A DNA stretch of 64,000 nucleotides from Dyella nitratireducens (GTDB lineage: Bacteria; Pseudomonadota; Gammaproteobacteria; Xanthomonadales; Rhodanobacteraceae). Both the position numbers and the translations under genes were made by a program. Each line of letters begins with the position of its first letter. The stretch's first letter is position 1. A model generated the notes under the pieces. It saw only the letters and a program-made list of their open reading frames with translations, ran no database searches and had not been told where the DNA came from. The stretch is taken from positions 2,328,943-2,392,942 of the forward strand of contig NZ_BMJA01000001.1 of the NCBI RefSeq assembly GCF_014642835.1. Direction: 5' to 3'. Below are positions 55,741 through 64,000 of this stretch, piece after piece.

Positions 55741-58700
55741 TCAGGCCGACGCACTCTGCTGCGGCGCTTCGCGCTGCACGCGATCCATCCAATCCACGTT
55801 CGCCATCTTGCGCACGATCACGAACTCGTCGCGGTTCGAGCCGACGGTGCCGTAATAGTTGAAGCCCCAGCTGAGCTGCGCATAGCCGCCGATCATGTGC
55901 GTGGGCTTGAGCACCGTGCGCGTCACCGAGTTATGGATGCCGCCACGCATGCCGGTGATCTCCGAACCTGGCACGTTCACGATCTTCTCCTGCGCGTGGT
56001 ACATCATCACCATGCCTTCCTGCACGCGCTGGCTCACCACGGCGCGCGCCGTGATCGCGCCATTGATGTTGAACAGTTCGATCCAATCGTTGTCCACGAT
56101 GCCGCCACGCTTCGCGTCCGCCTCGGACAGCCACACGATCGGGCCGCCGCGCGACAACGTGAGCATGATCAGGTTGTCGGTATAGGTGGAATGGATACCC
56201 CACTTCTGGTGCGGCGTGATGAAGTTGAGCGTCAGCTCGGTGTGCCCGTTGTCGCGCTTGCCATGCAGCGCGGCGACTGAACGCGTGTCGATCGGTGGGC
56301 GATACAACGCAAAGCCCTCGCCGAAATCGCGCAGCCATGCATGATCCTGATAGAACTGCTGGCGACCGCTAAGCGTGCGCCATGGGATCAGTTCGTTGAC
56401 GTTGGTCCAGCCGGCGGTATAGCTGACGCGTTCGCTCTCGATACCCGACCACGTCGGCGAACTGATGATTTTGCGCGGCTGCGCCTGGATGTCGCGGAAG
56501 CGGATTTTCTCGTCCTCGCGTGCTTCGGCGAGGTGGTGATGGTCGCGGCCGGTGATGCGCGATAGCGCCTCCCACGCCTTGACCGCCACCTGGCCGTTCG
56601 TTTCCGGCGCGAGGTAAAGAATCGTTTCTGCCGCATCGATATCGCTGACGATGCGCGGCCGGCCTTTGGTCGGGCCATCTTCAACGAGATAGTTCAGTTC
56701 ACCGAGGCCGCGCACTTCCTCTTGCGTGTTCCAGCCGATGCCCTTGCCGCCATTGCCGAGCTTGTCCATCAACGGACCCAGTGAGGTAAAGCGCGCGTAG
56801 GTGGCCGGGTAGTCACGCTCGACAACGCTGATATTCGGCGCCGTCACACCAGGGACGAACGCACACTCACCCTTCTTCCAATCACGCACCTCGAACGGCT
56901 GCGCCAACTCGCCGGCCGTGTCGTGCATGATCGGCGTCAGCACCACATCGCGTTCCACGCCCAGATGGCCTTGTGCAAGCTCGGAGAAACGCTTCGCCAC
57001 GGCCTTGAAGATTTCCCAGTCGCTCCTCGACTCCCATACCGGATCGACCGCAGCCGACAGCGGATGGATAAAGGGGTGCATGTCGGAGGTATTGAGATCG
57101 TTCTTCTCATACCACGACGCGGTCGGCAGCACGATGTCGGAATACAGGCATGACGTGGACATACGAAAGTCCAGCGTCACCACCAGATCCAGCTTGCCCT
57201 CCGGCGCCTGCGTGTGCCACGCCACTTCTTCGGGCTTGTGGCCACCATCTTCGCCGAGGTCCTTGCCTTGCAGGCCATGGCGCGTACCCAGGAAATGACG
57301 CAGGAAATACTCGTGCCCCTTGCCGGACGAACCGAACAGGTTGGAGCGCCAGATAAACAGATTGCGCGGAAAATTGACGGGATCGTCCGGATCTTCACAG
57401 GCCATGCGCAACTTGCCGGTTTGCAATGCATCCGCCACGTAATCGCGTGGATTCATGCCGGATTGATCCGCCTCGCGGGCGATATTCAGAGGGTTGCACG
57501 CCAACTGCGGCGCGGACGGCAGCCAGCCCATGCGTTCCGCGCGCACGTTGCAATCGATCAGGCTATGTCCGTATTTGCCGCGTGGTGTCAGCGGCGAGAG
57601 CAGCTCGTCGACATCGAGCTTTTCGTAACGCCATTGATCCGAATGCGCATAGAAGAACGATGTGCCGTTCATCTGCCGCGGCGGCCGTGCCCAGTCCAGC
57701 CCGAATGCCAGTGCCGTCCAGCCGGTCTGCGGACGCAATTTCTCCTGCCCGACGTAATGCGCCCAACCGCCGCCCGATACGCCGATCGTGCCGCACAGCA
57801 TCAGCATGTTGATGATGCTGCGGTAATTCATGTCCTGGTGGAACCAGTGGTTCATCCCTGCGCCGATGATGACCATCGAACGTCCGCGCGTTTTCGCGGC
57901 GTTCTCGGCGAAGGCGCGTGCCACGGCGATCGCGTGTTCTGCCGATACGCCGGTAATCGTCTGTTGCCATGCAGGCGTATAGGGAACGTTGTCGTCGTAG
58001 CGCTTCGCGCACGCGCCACCCAAGCCACGATCGAGTCCATAGTGGGCGCACAACAAGTCGAACACGGAAGCGACGATGCATTCGCCATCGCGCGTCGCGA
58101 CGCGCCGTATGGGAACGCGGCGCAACAACACATCGCTCGCTTGCGCGTTATTCGGAAAGTGCGCGTGCTCAGTGCCGCCGAAATACGGAAAAGCCACTTC
58201 CAGCGTGTCGTCACACTGATCGATCTGGCTCAAGACCAGTTCGATCGACGTGCCATCGGATGCTTTCTGCTCGAGATTCCACTTGCCGTGGTCAGGACTA
58301 TCCTGCCCCGGCCAACGGAACCCGATGGCGCCTTGCGGAATCACCAACTTGCCGCTCGCATCGAACCCCACGGTTTTCCACTCGGCATGCTCGGGACTGC
58401 CGAGTGCATCGTCGAAATCACTGGCGCGCAGATAGCGGTCGGGAACCCAGCGCTCGCCATCGCGACGTAGCGCGACCAGCAGCGGCAGATCCGTATAGCG
58501 CCGGCAATAGTTCTGAAAGTACTCGCACTGGCGGTCGAGAAAGAACTCGCGCAACACCACGTGCCCCATCGCCATCGCCAGGGCGGCATCCGTGCCCTGT
58601 TTGGGATGCAGCCACAGGTCGGAAAGCTTCGACACTTCCGCGTAGTCCGGCGTGATCGCTACCACGCGCGTGCCGTTGTAGCGTGCTTCGACAAAGAAGT

Positions 58701-59490
58701 GCGCATCGGGCGTGCGCGTCTGCGGCACATTCGAGCCCCAGGCGATGATGTAGCCCGCGTTGTACCAATCCGCCGATTCCGGCACGTCGGTTTGTTCGCC
58801 CCAGGTCTGCGGGCTCGACGGCGGCAGGTCGCAGTACCAGTCGTAGAACGACAGCAGGGTGCCGCCGATCAGGCTCAGATAACGCGCGCCCGCAGCGTAC
58901 GAGACCATCGACATGGCGGGGATCGGCGAGAAGCCCACCACGCGATCCGGCCCGTGCTGTTTGATGGTGTGCACATTGGCGGCCGCGATGATGTCCAGCA
59001 CCTCATCCCACGTCGTGCGCACGAAGCCGCCAAGGCCGCGCACCGGTTTGTAATCCGTGCCGTGCGGATCGGCCATCAACGCGGCCCACGCGTCCACCGG
59101 CGCCATCGTCTTGCGCGCTTCGCGCCAGCGCCGCAACAGGCGTCCGCGCACCATCGGGTACTTCAGGCGATTGGCGCTATACAGGTACCAGGAATACGAC
59201 GCGCCGCGCGAACAGCCGCGCGGCTCATGGTTCGGCATGCCGGCACGCGTGCGCGGATAATCCGTCTGCTGCGTTTCCCAGGTCACCACGCCGCCTTTCA
59301 CGTAGATCTTCCAACTGCACGAGCCCGTGCAATTCACGCCGTGCGTGGAGCGGACGATCTTGTCGTGCTGCCAGCGGTTGCGATAACCGTCCTCCCACTG
59401 GCGATTCTCTGCGCGTACCTCGCCGAGACCATTCGCAAACGGCTCGCGACGCTGCGAGAAATAGCGCAGGCGGTCGAGGAAATGACTCAT
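55741..59490 (-). CDS. narG: Respiratory nitrate reductase alpha subunit (molybdenum)
   Basis: 1,249 residues, full length for NarG. The FS0 iron-sulfur ligands are present: His50, Cys54, Cys58 (HGVNCTGSCSW) and Cys93 (PRGCSRG). The Mo-ligand Asp is expected in YDWYCDLPPSSPQTWGEQTD near 217-221. It reduces nitrate to nitrite on the cytoplasmic face, with NarH and NarI. No Tat signal is seen, in line with cytoplasm-facing NarG. It starts 22 bp after narK; the order narK-G-H-J-I is conserved. Confidence 0.97.
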   Translation of the reverse strand: MSHFLDRLRYFSQRREPFANGLGEVRAENRQWEDGYRNRWQHDKIVRSTHGVNCTGSCSWKIYVKGGVVTWETQQTDYPRTRAGMPNHEPRGCSRGASYSWYLYSANRLKYPMVRGRLLRRWREARKTMAPVDAWAALMADPHGTDYKPVRGLGGFVRTTWDEVLDIIAAANVHTIKQHGPDRVVGFSPIPAMSMVSYAAGARYLSLIGGTLLSFYDWYCDLPPSSPQTWGEQTDVPESADWYNAGYIIAWGSNVPQTRTPDAHFFVEARYNGTRVVAITPDYAEVSKLSDLWLHPKQGTDAALAMAMGHVVLREFFLDRQCEYFQNYCRRYTDLPLLVALRRDGERWVPDRYLRASDFDDALGSPEHAEWKTVGFDASGKLVIPQGAIGFRWPGQDSPDHGKWNLEQKASDGTSIELVLSQIDQCDDTLEVAFPYFGGTEHAHFPNNAQASDVLLRRVPIRRVATRDGECIVASVFDLLCAHYGLDRGLGGACAKRYDDNVPYTPAWQQTITGVSAEHAIAVARAFAENAAKTRGRSMVIIGAGMNHWFHQDMNYRSIINMLMLCGTIGVSGGGWAHYVGQEKLRPQTGWTALAFGLDWARPPRQMNGTSFFYAHSDQWRYEKLDVDELLSPLTPRGKYGHSLIDCNVRAERMGWLPSAPQLACNPLNIAREADQSGMNPRDYVADALQTGKLRMACEDPDDPVNFPRNLFIWRSNLFGSSGKGHEYFLRHFLGTRHGLQGKDLGEDGGHKPEEVAWHTQAPEGKLDLVVTLDFRMSTSCLYSDIVLPTASWYEKNDLNTSDMHPFIHPLSAAVDPVWESRSDWEIFKAVAKRFSELAQGHLGVERDVVLTPIMHDTAGELAQPFEVRDWKKGECAFVPGVTAPNISVVERDYPATYARFTSLGPLMDKLGNGGKGIGWNTQEEVRGLGELNYLVEDGPTKGRPRIVSDIDAAETILYLAPETNGQVAVKAWEALSRITGRDHHHLAEAREDEKIRFRDIQAQPRKIISSPTWSGIESERVSYTAGWTNVNELIPWRTLSGRQQFYQDHAWLRDFGEGFALYRPPIDTRSVAALHGKRDNGHTELTLNFITPHQKWGIHSTYTDNLIMLTLSRGGPIVWLSEADAKRGGIVDNDWIELFNINGAITARAVVSQRVQEGMVMMYHAQEKIVNVPGSEITGMRGGIHNSVTRTVLKPTHMIGGYAQLSWGFNYYGTVGSNRDEFVIVRKMANVDWMDRVQREAPQQSASA

Positions 59491-59512
59491 GACTTTCTCC
59501 TGGTGACGCTGC

Positions 59513-60751
59513 TCAGGATGGCGACGTGGTGTTCTGCCCGCGGATATCGATGCGCCGCACTTCCGTGAAATAAATAAGGATCAGCGACACCCACACGACG
59601 CCGTACAAGAGCATGAAGGCGCTGGAACGAATACCGAGCAGATCCAGCAGGCCACCCCACAGGATCGGCAGCAGAAAACCGCCGAGACCGCCGGCAAGGC
59701 CGACGATGCCGGTCACGATGCCCAGCGTTTCCGAAAAATCGTCGCCCAGGTACTTGAAGGTGGAGGCCATGCCGAACGCGAGTGCGACACCCAGCACGAA
59801 CAGCAAGGGCGTAAACGCCCATAGATTCAGCCCGATATGCAAGCTCGACGGCCCGTGGATGGTCTGTACGACCAACTGCGTTTGCGGATACGACAACAGG
59901 AACAGCGCGATCCACGCCAGCCACAGCACCCACCACGTCAAGGCATGTGCACCGAACCGATCGGATAGCGCACCACCCACGGCACGCAGCACACCTGCCG
60001 GCAACGAGAAGCAGGCGGCCAGGGCCGCAGCCGTGGCGATACCCAAGCCGTATTCGCCGCCGAAATACTGCGGCATCCACACCGACAAGCCGGTGAAGCC
60101 ACCGAACGTGAGCGAGTAGTACTGGCAGTACTTCCATACGCGCGGATCGCGCAGCACCTGCAGTTGCTGCTTCAAGCTTGGTGGTTGTTTTCCGCCGACG
60201 CCCGGATCGGGTGCCGATAGCAACCAGAAGATCGCTGCCGTGGCGAGCAGCGCCACCGCGTAGATGCGCGGCACCGCACGCCAGCCCAGCGAATCCACGA
60301 TGGCCGGCGCCACGAACATGTTGAGCGCCGCGCCGCTGGTGCCGGCACCGAAAAAGCCCATGGCAAAGCCACGGCGGTTGGCCGGAAAGAAACGCGCAAC
60401 GTAAGGCGTGCCTACCGCGAACGACGCACCCACGGCGCCAAGGCACAGGCCGATGGCGAGGAATTGCCACAACACCGTGGCATAGGTGACCAGCCACACC
60501 GGTATCGCCGCCACGAGCAGAAGTAGGGTCATGACGCTGCGTCCGCCGAAGCGGTCAGTCCAGATACCCAAGGGAAGCCGCAACAATGCGCCGCTGAGGA
60601 TGGGCGTTGCCGTCAACAGACCGAATTCCGTGGCATTGAGGTTGAGTTCCTGGCGTATCGGGATGCCGATCACCCCGAACGCCATCCACACGGCGAAGCA
60701 GACGACAAACGCAAACGTACTGACGAACAACACCCTGTATGCGACGCCCAT
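59513..60751 (-). CDS. narK: Nitrate/nitrite MFS transporter
   Basis: 412 residues from ATG 60751, with GGGAGC before it. Twelve hydrophobic segments and the NarK/NasA marks: FAVWMAFGVIGIPIRQELNLN in helix 1, ATPILSGALLRLPLGIWTDRFGGR between helices 2 and 3, GFFGAGTSGAALNMFVAPAIV and GIVTGIVGLAGGLGGFLLPI, a second nitrate-signature Gly-rich segment. Supplies nitrate to, or exports nitrite from, the reductase encoded next to it. First gene of the operon; an FNR/ANR box lies 120 bp upstream. Confidence 0.93.
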   Translation of the reverse strand: MGVAYRVLFVSTFAFVVCFAVWMAFGVIGIPIRQELNLNATEFGLLTATPILSGALLRLPLGIWTDRFGGRSVMTLLLLVAAIPVWLVTYATVLWQFLAIGLCLGAVGASFAVGTPYVARFFPANRRGFAMGFFGAGTSGAALNMFVAPAIVDSLGWRAVPRIYAVALLATAAIFWLLSAPDPGVGGKQPPSLKQQLQVLRDPRVWKYCQYYSLTFGGFTGLSVWMPQYFGGEYGLGIATAAALAACFSLPAGVLRAVGGALSDRFGAHALTWWVLWLAWIALFLLSYPQTQLVVQTIHGPSSLHIGLNLWAFTPLLFVLGVALAFGMASTFKYLGDDFSETLGIVTGIVGLAGGLGGFLLPILWGGLLDLLGIRSSAFMLLYGVVWVSLILIYFTEVRRIDIRGQNTTSPS

Positions 60752-60870
60752 GCTCCCGTTTCCTTGTCCAGGCAGGAATCCGTACTTCGACTGGCGTGTG
60801 TTTACCGCTCCCCGCACATCGAACTCGCAAACCGCTTCGTCAAAGGTAACGGAGCGCCGGAGCTGCGATC

Positions 60871-61048: not shown

Positions 61049-61885
61049 CTAAGAACGCGTCGTCACCAATCCAAGCTCTTGGGCTGCGGGTGCCCACAGC
61101 ATCCAATCGGCCAGCACGCGCTCCTTCGGCATGTCGCGGGTTGCCACGCGTTGTGATGCCTGGTGCACATCGCATCCCTGGCGTAGTGCATCCAGCATGC
61201 TGTATTGCCAATCGGCCAGCGGATGAGCCGATACGCGGTAATGCATGCGGCTGATGGCAACGAGGCTGTTCTCTGGCTGCGGGCAAGCTGCTATGTCGTC
61301 ACTGGTCACCATCACCTGCCAGAACGGAATCAGGGGAAGCTTCAAATCCAGCAGCCGTACGCAGGGAGGAATTTCCCAATGCGTCGCACTCACCGATGTC
61401 CATGGTGATGCCGTCAGCGCTTGATGCTGCACACGTTCCGGTCCGTGATCGCGCATGGCTTCCAGCCAGGCTCGCTCGAAACGCGCCAATTCGGCAGGAA
61501 GCAGCCATGTGCCGTCGGTCGCGTCGGTTTGCGGTGGACGATGTTGGGAGAGGAAGGCGGGAAACCCTTCGCCGAGATCGTAGAGCGTGGGAGAGTGCGA
61601 AGGGCACTCCCACAGGTAGGCGCGCGCAAAGAAGCCGAATACTTCCTCGCCCATCACGCGTCGAAGCATGGGATAGTCGGTGGCCAGGCAATCGTAGAGC
61701 CGCAGCAAATAGCCATCGGCATAGACGCCCAATCGCCGCATCGGATCGGCAATGCGGCTGGCGTGAATCATGCCAGCCACCGTGAGCCCGTTGGTTTGGC
61801 GCGCCAGCATGGCACCGCGCTCGGCGCCACCAGGGGTGGTCATGACGGTGAGCAGCCAATGTTGAACGTCATGGAGCGACGGCAT
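61049..61885 (-). CDS. DUF2063 (HvfC/BufC-type) partner protein
   Basis: 278 residues; start ATG 61885 has AAGGAAG upstream. Family marks: [61 protein letters not shown] near residues 50-115. DUF2063 proteins are the usual partners of DUF692 oxidases and are thought to bind the precursor or the enzyme. The start lies inside the 3' end of the DUF692 gene (17-bp overlap), so synthesis is coupled. Here the C-terminal half (about 140-278) is less conserved in appearance. Confidence 0.88.
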
Positions 61886-62819
61886 GTTCTTCCTTCAGTT
61901 GAAACGCGATCGGCGTGGAGTAGCCGGAAGACATGGCTGTGGCATTTGCATCGATCGCTGGCGCGACGATGTCGCCGTGCAGCGCTTGGCGAGCCTTGTC
62001 CAGTTCGGCCAGCAGTTCCGGATAGCTGGGAATGTTGGCATCCCATTCGAGCAAAGTGGACACCGCGCCGTTGCTGGACGCATCGGCACCGCAGCGCTGT
62101 TGTGCCAACACATAGAGTTGCCAGACACGCGCGGGTACCGGTTGGTCATGCGTATCGATCAGCAGATCGCCGGTATCGCTGGGTCCGGCAAGATGGATCT
62201 GCACGATGTGCTCGGGCGGCAACTGCCGAATATAGTGTTCGGGGTCGAAGCCATGGTTGTGGCTGGACACGTAGACGTTGTTGACGTCGAGCAACAGGCC
62301 GCAACCGGTTTCCCGTGCGAGGCGCGCGAGGAAATCGCATTCGGCCATGGGTGAGCAGGCGAATTGCAGATAGCTGCTCGGGTTTTCCAATACCAAGGGC
62401 CGCTGCAGCAGTTCCTGCACGGCTTCCACCCGCTGCCGTACGTGCTGGTAAGTGGGTTCGTCCAGGGGCAGCGGCAACAGATCGTGCGCGTTGATGCCTG
62501 CCACGCCCGTCCAGCACAAGTGGTCGGAGATCCAGACGGGCTCGATGTCCTCAGCAAGTTGCTTGAGCTTGGCCAGGTACGTGCGGTCCAACGGATCAGC
62601 ACTGCCGATCGACATGGAAACACCATGCATCACGACAGGAACCTGTGCACGAATGCGGTCCAATGCATGGCGCGCGTAACCGTGATGACCGATGAAGTTC
62701 TCGCTGATGATTTCGAACCAGTCGACGCCGGGACCGTGGCGCAGGATGTGATCGAGATGCGCATTTCTCAGGCCAACGCCGAATCCGAGATTGGGCAGGC
62801 CGAGCCGGGGAGCGGTCAT
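61869..62819 (-). CDS. DUF692 multinuclear non-haem iron oxidase (MNIO) family enzyme
   Basis: 316 residues from ATG 62819 (GAAGG upstream; frame continues to 62897 but that part lacks a ribosome site). TIM-barrel family with the known landmarks: [79 protein letters not shown] and [11 protein letters not shown], whose His/Asp/Glu residues hold the two or three iron ions. MNIO enzymes modify cysteines or backbones in a precursor peptide. The neighbour upstream is a large Cys-rich protein, not a short peptide. Confidence 0.95.
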
Positions 62820-62893
62820 GATGTACCTTCGATGCGGGAAGGATGGTTGGATCTCGCCCTCGATGACGAGAGCGAGATCCACGTTCCTTGTTC

Positions 62894-64000
62894 TCAAGTA
62901 GAAGGAGGCAAGGCGATGCGCAGGTCGGTCGCCTTGGGCGGCGTGCCGACCGGTTTGCCGCGCTGGCTCATCACTTTCTGATAAGCCTCCCAGGCCTTCT
63001 GGTACACGGAGTCACCCAAGGCAAACGTCATCGTGCCGATTTGCTTGGACTGATGACGCGGACCGACGAAGTCGTACAGCACCATCGTGCCGCCTTCGGG
63101 ATACAGCTGCGAGGCGGAGATGGGAACCGCACAGCCACCAAACGTGGCGCACTTGTTGTCACTGGGTGAACTGTAATTGCCCGTGGATGGTGGCGGTCCG
63201 CCGCACAGATTGCCTTCCGCGACGTCGTTGTGGCTCTTGCGTCCGCGCAGCATGTAGGGTGCATGGCCTTCCGGCACGCTGGCCGTCATGCCACAACCGC
63301 CGCTGTGACCGCATGATCCGCCGCCGCTGTCGAGTTGCGCGAAGCCGCAACCGCCTTGTGCTTTGCAAGTGTTGGAACCGCGGCAGGTGTGATAGACCTC
63401 GATGGCGGCGCAACTGCCGTCGCTGCCTTCCCACGCCATGCCCTGGCATGCGTGATAGAGCTTGTTGGGATTGACGTCACCGATGCCCAGCGCGAGGTTG
63501 GGTGCTCTCCCGAACACCGCCCAGCAAAGCGACACGCGGTCGCCGGAACCAGCCATCGACGGATAAGGGAACGTGGTGCTGGCATTTTGCCAATAGTCGT
63601 TGAGCACCGTCGTGACACCTTTGATGGCACCCACGGCCACCTTGCTCAATACGGCATGTTCGGCCGGGCCTTGTGCTTTCAGCCGGTTCAGCGCGTCGGC
63701 AATGTCCTGCGGTGGTGGAATGGGAGACGTTGCGGGTGCACTGTATTCGTTGGTAGTCAGCATCGCCGCGGTCCAATGATTCTTTCGGTCGGCGTGCCAC
63801 TTCTCCCAGGTCATGATCTTGTCCAGCTTGCCGTGCAGCGACTCGAATCGCTCGAAGTGAGTCTCGGGCGCGTAGCGTGCGCGAGCTTCGGCATCGGCCG
63901 AAGGGGCTGGCCCACCGTTGGCGTTGTAGGATAGGTAATCCACCTCCAGCGCGGACCTGTCTTCGCGATATTTCTCCTTCACGTCGGTCAGCGGTGCGGG
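62894..64000 (-). CDS. Large cysteine-rich protein upstream of the MNIO gene, 5' end beyond window
   Basis: The frame is open to the window edge (base 64000), so the N-terminus is missing. Counted from a GTG at 63982, 362 residues remain. Residues 1-140 are polar and partly helical ([19 protein letters not shown]). Then come 11 Cys at 153, 179, 191, 200, 206, 212, 224, 230, 260, 278 and 284, in motifs such as [18 protein letters not shown] and [10 protein letters not shown], resembling Cys-Gly motifs of DUF692-modified peptides. A conserved-looking tail with [10 protein letters not shown] follows. The stop is 74 bp before the MNIO gene, same strand. Probable substrate, but a catalytic role cannot be excluded. 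Confidence 0.75.

Follow-up and report, generated by a model that had tools for sequence, protein, structure and literature searches.

Which protein does an MNIO (DUF692) enzyme with a DUF2063 partner act on when the gene in front of it codes for a long Cys-rich protein? The question is raised by the end of a 64,000-nucleotide stretch of the Dyella nitratireducens genome (G000:C1:2328943-2392942), referred to here as the window. Most of what is known about MNIO enzymes comes from short peptides, of which the bufferins are exported. An earlier note on this DNA had described an open frame with 11 Cys in about 130 residues, followed after 74 bp by a DUF692 gene and a coupled DUF2063 gene, and had suggested that the Cys motif is built into a much larger protein. 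The frame (64000..62894, minus strand) is indeed open for 368 codons, continues past the window edge and holds 11 Cys in 132 residues. A possible ATG of the MNIO gene at 62819 lies 74 bp past its stop, the MNIO and partner genes overlap by 17 bp, and both products pass the Pfam cut-offs. The features of the locus are as follows.

62894..64000, minus strand: C-terminal 368 residues (317-684) of the ferritin-like protein; open frame, the gene extends 948 bp past the window end
63131..63526, minus strand: Cys-rich region, residues 475-606; 11 of these 132 residues are Cys (count in frame; 10-sequence alignment)
63347..63385, minus strand: motif C522-x5-C528-x5-C534, BufA2-like (H-x-C-x-G-S-N-x-C-K-x-Q-G-G-C-G in the window protein; alignment, hhalign)
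63131..63157, minus strand: motif N598-x-C600-x5-C606, then A-V-P-I-S (10-sequence alignment)
62897..62938, minus strand: conserved C-terminal tail, ending in LRIALPPST (homologue comparison)
61869..62819, minus strand: MNIO enzyme (DUF692), BufB-type, 316 residues (PF05114; NF050167 MNIO_BufB)
61049..61885, minus strand: DUF2063 partner (PME-type 1), 278 residues (PF09836), overlapping the MNIO gene by 17 bp

Extension of the contig upstream, which the note had proposed as a way to reach the N-terminus, yielded the complete gene (L003:2894-4948, minus strand), which starts with ATG and codes for 684 residues. Its only Pfam domain is the ferritin-like PF12902, presumably the VioB family, at residues 37-303 (E 2.3e-24; 87 bits against a cut-off of 22.3), and a search of NCBIfam returned no profile at E 1. 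Because the window starts at residue 317, this match lies wholly outside it, in the 948-bp part of the gene past the window end. The solved structure found by sequence search was 3hl1 alone, which is also ferritin-like. AlphaFold reached a pLDDT of 29 for the D. acidisoli homologue and the window fragment. The domain order is ferritin-like domain, linker, Cys-rich region and conserved tail; the Cys motif does belong to a much larger protein, as a C-terminal region separate from the ferritin-like part. In the alignment the ferritin ligand positions E43, E103-x2-H106, E179 and E300 are invariant in all ten homologues and also in two controls, and H364 is invariant in the alignment with controls; in two other alignments one homologue (G096) is unaligned at that position. 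Since the ligand positions are invariant, we expect a working metal site in the ferritin-like domain. None of the ten proteins has a strongly hydrophobic N-terminus (best 12-residue hydropathy, a crude measure, 0.14-1.63 as against 1.70-2.43 in four BufA2 proteins). With no evident signal peptide the 684-residue protein should stay in the cytosol, and the ferritin-like MNIO-linked protein is thus apparently cytosolic.

The Cys-rich region is strongly conserved at particular positions. All ten aligned sequences have C501, C522, C534, C600 and C606, and likewise N526, N598, P609 and I610, without exception; C513 and C528 are Cys in nine of ten each. Both spacings, C-x5-C-x5-C and N-x-C-x5-C, are present in 9/10 homologues; the exception is G436, where His stands in place of C528 and the first spacing motif is missing. 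Shuffling the last 260 residues of the window protein brought both spacings together in 3 of 5000 cases. The over-threshold BufA2 proteins found here read C-x5-C-x5-C-x5/6-C-x5-C, and the two motifs of the ferritin-like protein match the two halves of this pattern. Alignment of the Cys region with BufA2 by hhalign gave 75.5% over 19 columns, a short match that points to a resemblance and is no proof of descent. The C-terminal tail (LRxAxPPST or similar) was found in 9/10 homologues and is absent from G096. The G096 protein (L026:4806-7034, minus strand) is the most divergent homologue (24% identity); it carries the additional Cys motifs HACMGLNSCK and NDCAGQGYC, and its C-terminus differs.

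The MNIO scored 344 bits against PF05114 (cut-off 25) and 347.9 bits against the NCBIfam equivalog NF050167 (cut-off 310), above which all 9 homologues scored too. H65, E145, D178, H209, D222, H224, E258 and D260, which we take to be the MNIO active site, are invariant among the letters of a 30-row MNIO alignment. The partner reached 64 bits against PF09836 (cut-off 27.2), again with 9/9 homologues above (57.2-73.5 bits), and its length of 278 residues suits a two-domain protein. NGO1945_C, the RRE-type C-terminal domain, gave no match at E 1 in the window partner and 18.5 bits in one of seven homologues (cut-off 27). According to PMC12452194, PME-type 1 partners pair with Sec-exported precursors, and in the case of Buf1 the signal peptide seems to be part of what the enzyme recognizes. 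The cassette departs from this pairing, as the crude hydropathy scan revealed no Sec signal peptide in any of the ten proteins. Hence, with a DUF2063 partner and a substrate lacking a signal peptide, recognition should rely on something else. The conserved C-terminal tail is a candidate recognition element.

As a further check the earlier note had called for a survey of genomes for the same gene triple, and it had named a lack of co-occurrence with DUF692 elsewhere as grounds for giving up the idea. This case did not arise. In all ten loci with the Cys-region protein, the window locus included, the MNIO and DUF2063 genes follow directly downstream in the same order, and the products passed the cut-offs of PF12902 (10/10), BufB (10/10) and DUF2063 (10/10). 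The loci are spread over about seven genera of Pseudomonadota. The gap between the ferritin-like gene and the MNIO gene is 5-81 bp (6 loci with an ATG start used) and the MNIO/partner overlap 1-17 bp (5 loci with ATG in both); these spacings leave out L025 and L033, where the MNIO start is no start codon, and for the partner start likewise L019, L025 and L033. The D. acidisoli homologue (L005, 89%) was the sole relative from the pattern scan of genome contigs, and the Pseudoalteromonas piscicida homologue (L010) is located on a megaplasmid; a near copy in Pseudoalteromonas strain NC201 was left out of the count of ten. Other strong relatives were found in G436, G448, G096, G727, G897, G1121 and G1195, with G096 appearing as a weak match in one search and at full length in another.

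The genome searches were confined to Pseudomonadota and took up 1984 genome slots, counting repeats and two surveys by family; plasmids, phages and viral contigs were searched too, and GTDB contigs in one pattern scan. Strong and weak matches together were obtained in 2/200, 3/117, 4/369, 4/398, 3/240, 2/78, 6/180 and 2/175 genomes, and in 2/16 inside the genus. The Cys-region ferritin-like protein is rare and scattered. The phages and viral contigs searched held no relative, and the Cys segment of G096 had no match among plasmids. The plasmids contained 359 records with an MNIO match, of which the annotation of three and of the Pseudoalteromonas copies was looked at. The two MNIOs from Pseudomonas plasmids (51-52% identity) follow precursors of the BufA2 type and have genes for metal or copper resistance alongside; the one from an Azospirillum plasmid (43%) is located behind DUF2282.

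The weak matches served as controls. These are PF12902 proteins of 320-580 residues from Gloeothece, Ruegeria and nine further genomes; all 11 exceed the PF12902 cut-off and none of the 11 has either Cys spacing motif. No MNIO or partner match was found in the stretches fetched around these 11 loci, three of which are short at contig ends (L035 6.1 kb, L038 6.2 kb, L091 7.2 kb). One of the PF12902 proteins (L089:4849-6591, plus strand; G1254; 580 residues) carries Fer4_19 and zf-CDGSH iron-sulfur domains in its C-terminal half, and the PF12902 domain is therefore joined to differing metal modules across bacteria. In a cyanobacterium and in Ruegeria the PF12902 gene lies directly behind a GMC oxidoreductase gene (L011:2987-6113, L012:3142-6131), a recurrent pair.

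At the cassettes themselves, a simple pattern scan found no other precursor-like ORF with Cys motifs in 10/10 loci, and two DoxX queries gave no match in any of the ten. Inspection of the neighbouring ORFs in the window genome showed no copper gene adjoining the cassette. Directly downstream of it (window 55741-60817, minus strand) we recognized, by eye, a NarK-like MFS transporter and a NarG-like large molybdopterin-type reductase; the neighbours of the cassette in D. acidisoli are unlike these.

The phylogenies provided further information on what the MNIO follows. A single branch (97/96, recovered in each of 200 bootstrap trees) separates the ten cassette enzymes in a tree of 34 MNIOs from the sampled Buf1 (9 rows), EGKCG (4) and Buf2 (7, not a single group) enzymes; four rows of no group were left uncounted. 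The placement of Buf2 relative to the cassette clade varies between trees, and our claim is therefore limited to the clade being separate. For the ferritin-like domain, G096 is placed among other PF12902 proteins, away from the remaining nine, and constraining the ten ferritin-like domains to one clade was rejected (AU p 0.0138; 0.0016 without four long rows). Because long branches meet here and the test was chosen after the tree had been seen, derivation of the ferritin-like domains of the ten loci from two lineages is likely rather than shown. Taken at face value, the trees suggest that the MNIO clade remained associated with the Cys region through a change of the ferritin-like domain. Identities of the ferritin-like protein and of the MNIO co-vary over 8 loci (r 0.94, or 0.86 without the Dyella pair; 28 non-independent pairs).

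The residue after the catalytic Asp has been described as a substrate-contact site, with Phe in the Lys-Cys (EGKCG) enzymes and Asp in the Cys-Lys (BufA2) enzymes (PMC13097082). In our alignment it is Phe in 4/4 EGKCG enzymes, Asp in 3/5 and Ala in 2/5 Buf2 enzymes, Ala in 2/9 and Gly in 1/9 Buf1 enzymes, and Ala in 7/8 and Gly in 1/8 of the ferritin-associated enzymes. Since some Buf1 and Buf2 enzymes have the same residues, Ala or Gly at this position was ruled out as a mark of the cassette clade; judged from the alignment, the site separates the clade from the EGKCG enzymes only.

Taken as a whole, these results make it reasonably likely that the gene triple constitutes a self-contained cassette for protein modification, in which the MNIO and its partner act on the Cys region. 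The ferritin-like protein is very probably the dedicated substrate of the MNIO, and the conservation pattern makes it likely that the modification falls on the conserved Cys (C501, C513, C522, C528, C534, C600, C606). The MNIO, bound to the DUF2063 partner, would oxidise one or more of these seven residues, most likely to a copper-binding 5-thiooxazole by analogy with bufferins and captophorins. From this analogy the chances that the product is specifically a thiooxazole appear about even, and those that the bound metal is specifically copper somewhat lower. In the weakest step, the modified segment would work together with the diiron-type ferritin-like domain, as a module that binds copper or another metal or takes part in redox chemistry. 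The composite could function as a redox enzyme that carries its own metal module, or as a cytosolic metal buffer.

A bolder version, which we put forward as a speculation with the chances against it, is that the MNIO and its partner equip a cytosolic enzyme of full size with a heterocyclic cofactor that binds metal. A thiooxazole-type site for copper or another metal would then work beside the diiron site, giving a genetically encoded mixed-metal enzyme, built after translation, and not a peptide metallophore. This combination would have arisen at least twice, on different ferritin-like lineages, and be recognized without a signal peptide.

On the main reading, the arrangement suggests that MNIO enzymes may build metal sites into whole proteins too. 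A dedicated MNIO clade with a cytosolic ferritin-like protein as its apparent substrate would bring these enzymes into protein maturation. It would also break with the pairing of DUF2063 partners and exported precursors described in print, so that another recognition signal would be needed.

Three other explanations have to be weighed against this reading. The one that survives best accepts the modification and differs in the function of the product, which would passively buffer or store copper in the cytosol, with the ferritin-like domain as a mere scaffold or free of metal. Csp3-type proteins reportedly store copper in the cytosol, which counts in favour of this explanation, as does the buffering of copper by bufferins (PMC12452194). 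We nevertheless regard it as rather unlikely, as the invariance of E43, E103, H106, E179 and E300 in ten homologues and two controls argues for a working metal site.

According to the next explanation the MNIO modifies the ferritin-like protein in some other way than to a thiooxazole on Cys, by another MNIO reaction or at a different residue such as Asn 526 or Asn 598, both invariant. The chemistry of MNIOs is diverse, with Asp, Asn or Phe as the target of some (PMC12452194), and the residue beside the catalytic Asp is unlike that of the EGKCG enzymes. All 10/10 sequences keep N526 and N598, but five Cys equal them in this respect, and all ten MNIOs pass the BufB profile. Such a different chemistry therefore seems improbable.

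Still less probable is an ordinary structural role of the Cys region, through disulfides or zinc, with the ferritin-like protein itself a pathway enzyme that acts together with the MNIO on a precursor encoded elsewhere, e.g. the BufA2 of a second locus. Ferritin-like enzymes do exist in biosynthesis (VioB, RebD), and a bufA2-bufB-DUF2063 locus is present at another place in the window genome. That locus, however, has a BufB of its own, and the pattern scan detected no precursor-like ORF in 10/10 cassette loci. Furthermore, PF12902 proteins without the Cys motifs had MNIO neighbours in 0/11 cases, and the MNIO tracks the Cys region over apparently two ferritin-like lineages. A decayed or chance neighbourhood is ruled out by the triple being kept in 10/10 loci, and a hidden small precursor at the cassette was not found by the pattern scan of the 10 loci.

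The reading as a protein-modification cassette can be set beside systems already described. MNIO substrates of protein size have been published, as have bufferin fusions of other kinds; a ferritin-like one was not found in print. The word ferritin is absent from the main text of PMC12452194, the matches listed from the open-access literature include no report of a ferritin-like MNIO/DUF692 or bufferin substrate (supplements may hold one), and DUF692 is unmentioned in passages of a paper on LodA quinoproteins that names PF12902. PMC12452194 already proposes MNIO modification of proteins and describes bufferin-domain fusions (Buf1/Cytochrom_C/FGE-sulfatase, MerC/Buf1, MerC/Buf2 and Buf_EGKCG/EF-hand). 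As far as described there, these fusions share with the ferritin-like protein a bufferin-type Cys segment within a larger metal-related protein. They were collected by bufferin profiles, whereas the BufA2 profile misses the ferritin-like protein, which differs further in lacking an evident signal peptide and in having an MNIO clade dedicated to it. The TIGR04222 proteins that occur with MNIO are likewise large putative substrates lacking a Sec signal peptide, and a subset of them is Cys-rich C-terminally. In PMC12452194, however, they are membrane proteins, mostly of Actinomycetota, and rather have PME-type 2 partners, in contrast to the DUF2063 (PME-type 1) partner of the cassette. PF12902 proteins (PDB 3hl1) share the ferritin-like domain and the same ligand positions, but at the 11 loci examined they lack the Cys motifs and the MNIO neighbours.

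The closest likeness is to Buf2/BufA2 with BufB and DUF2063, copper-binding RiPPs, in the order substrate-MNIO-DUF2063, in both Cys spacings and in the BufB profile. In contrast, the cassette substrate has 684 residues, compared with precursors of 51-367 (PMC12452194); it has no evident signal peptide, a ferritin-like domain and a motif split by an insert, DoxX is missing, and the MNIO forms its own clade. Against the BufA2 profile NF050166 (cut-off 60 bits), one of seven members scanned appeared at E 0.17 and none above the cut-off. The six-Cys spacing C-x5-C-x5-C-x5/6-C-x5-C ... C is not found as such, its halves occurring in 9/10 proteins with a variable insert between them, and the bufferin traits of a Sec signal peptide, small size and a DoxX gene are absent from the cassette. 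An ordinary bufferin is ruled out by these tests of profile, six-Cys spacing, signal peptide, size and DoxX. The window genome has one other MNIO gene (locus L004:4174-6850, at about 1429.2-1431.9 kb of G000:C1, outside the window). Here a BufA2-type precursor with a hydrophobic N-terminus (64.4 bits against 60) is encoded together with BufB and DUF2063, with DoxX on the opposite strand, and by these sequence features the locus is an ordinary bufferin operon. As it holds its own BufA2, BufB and DUF2063, the ferritin-like cassette is a second, separate system.
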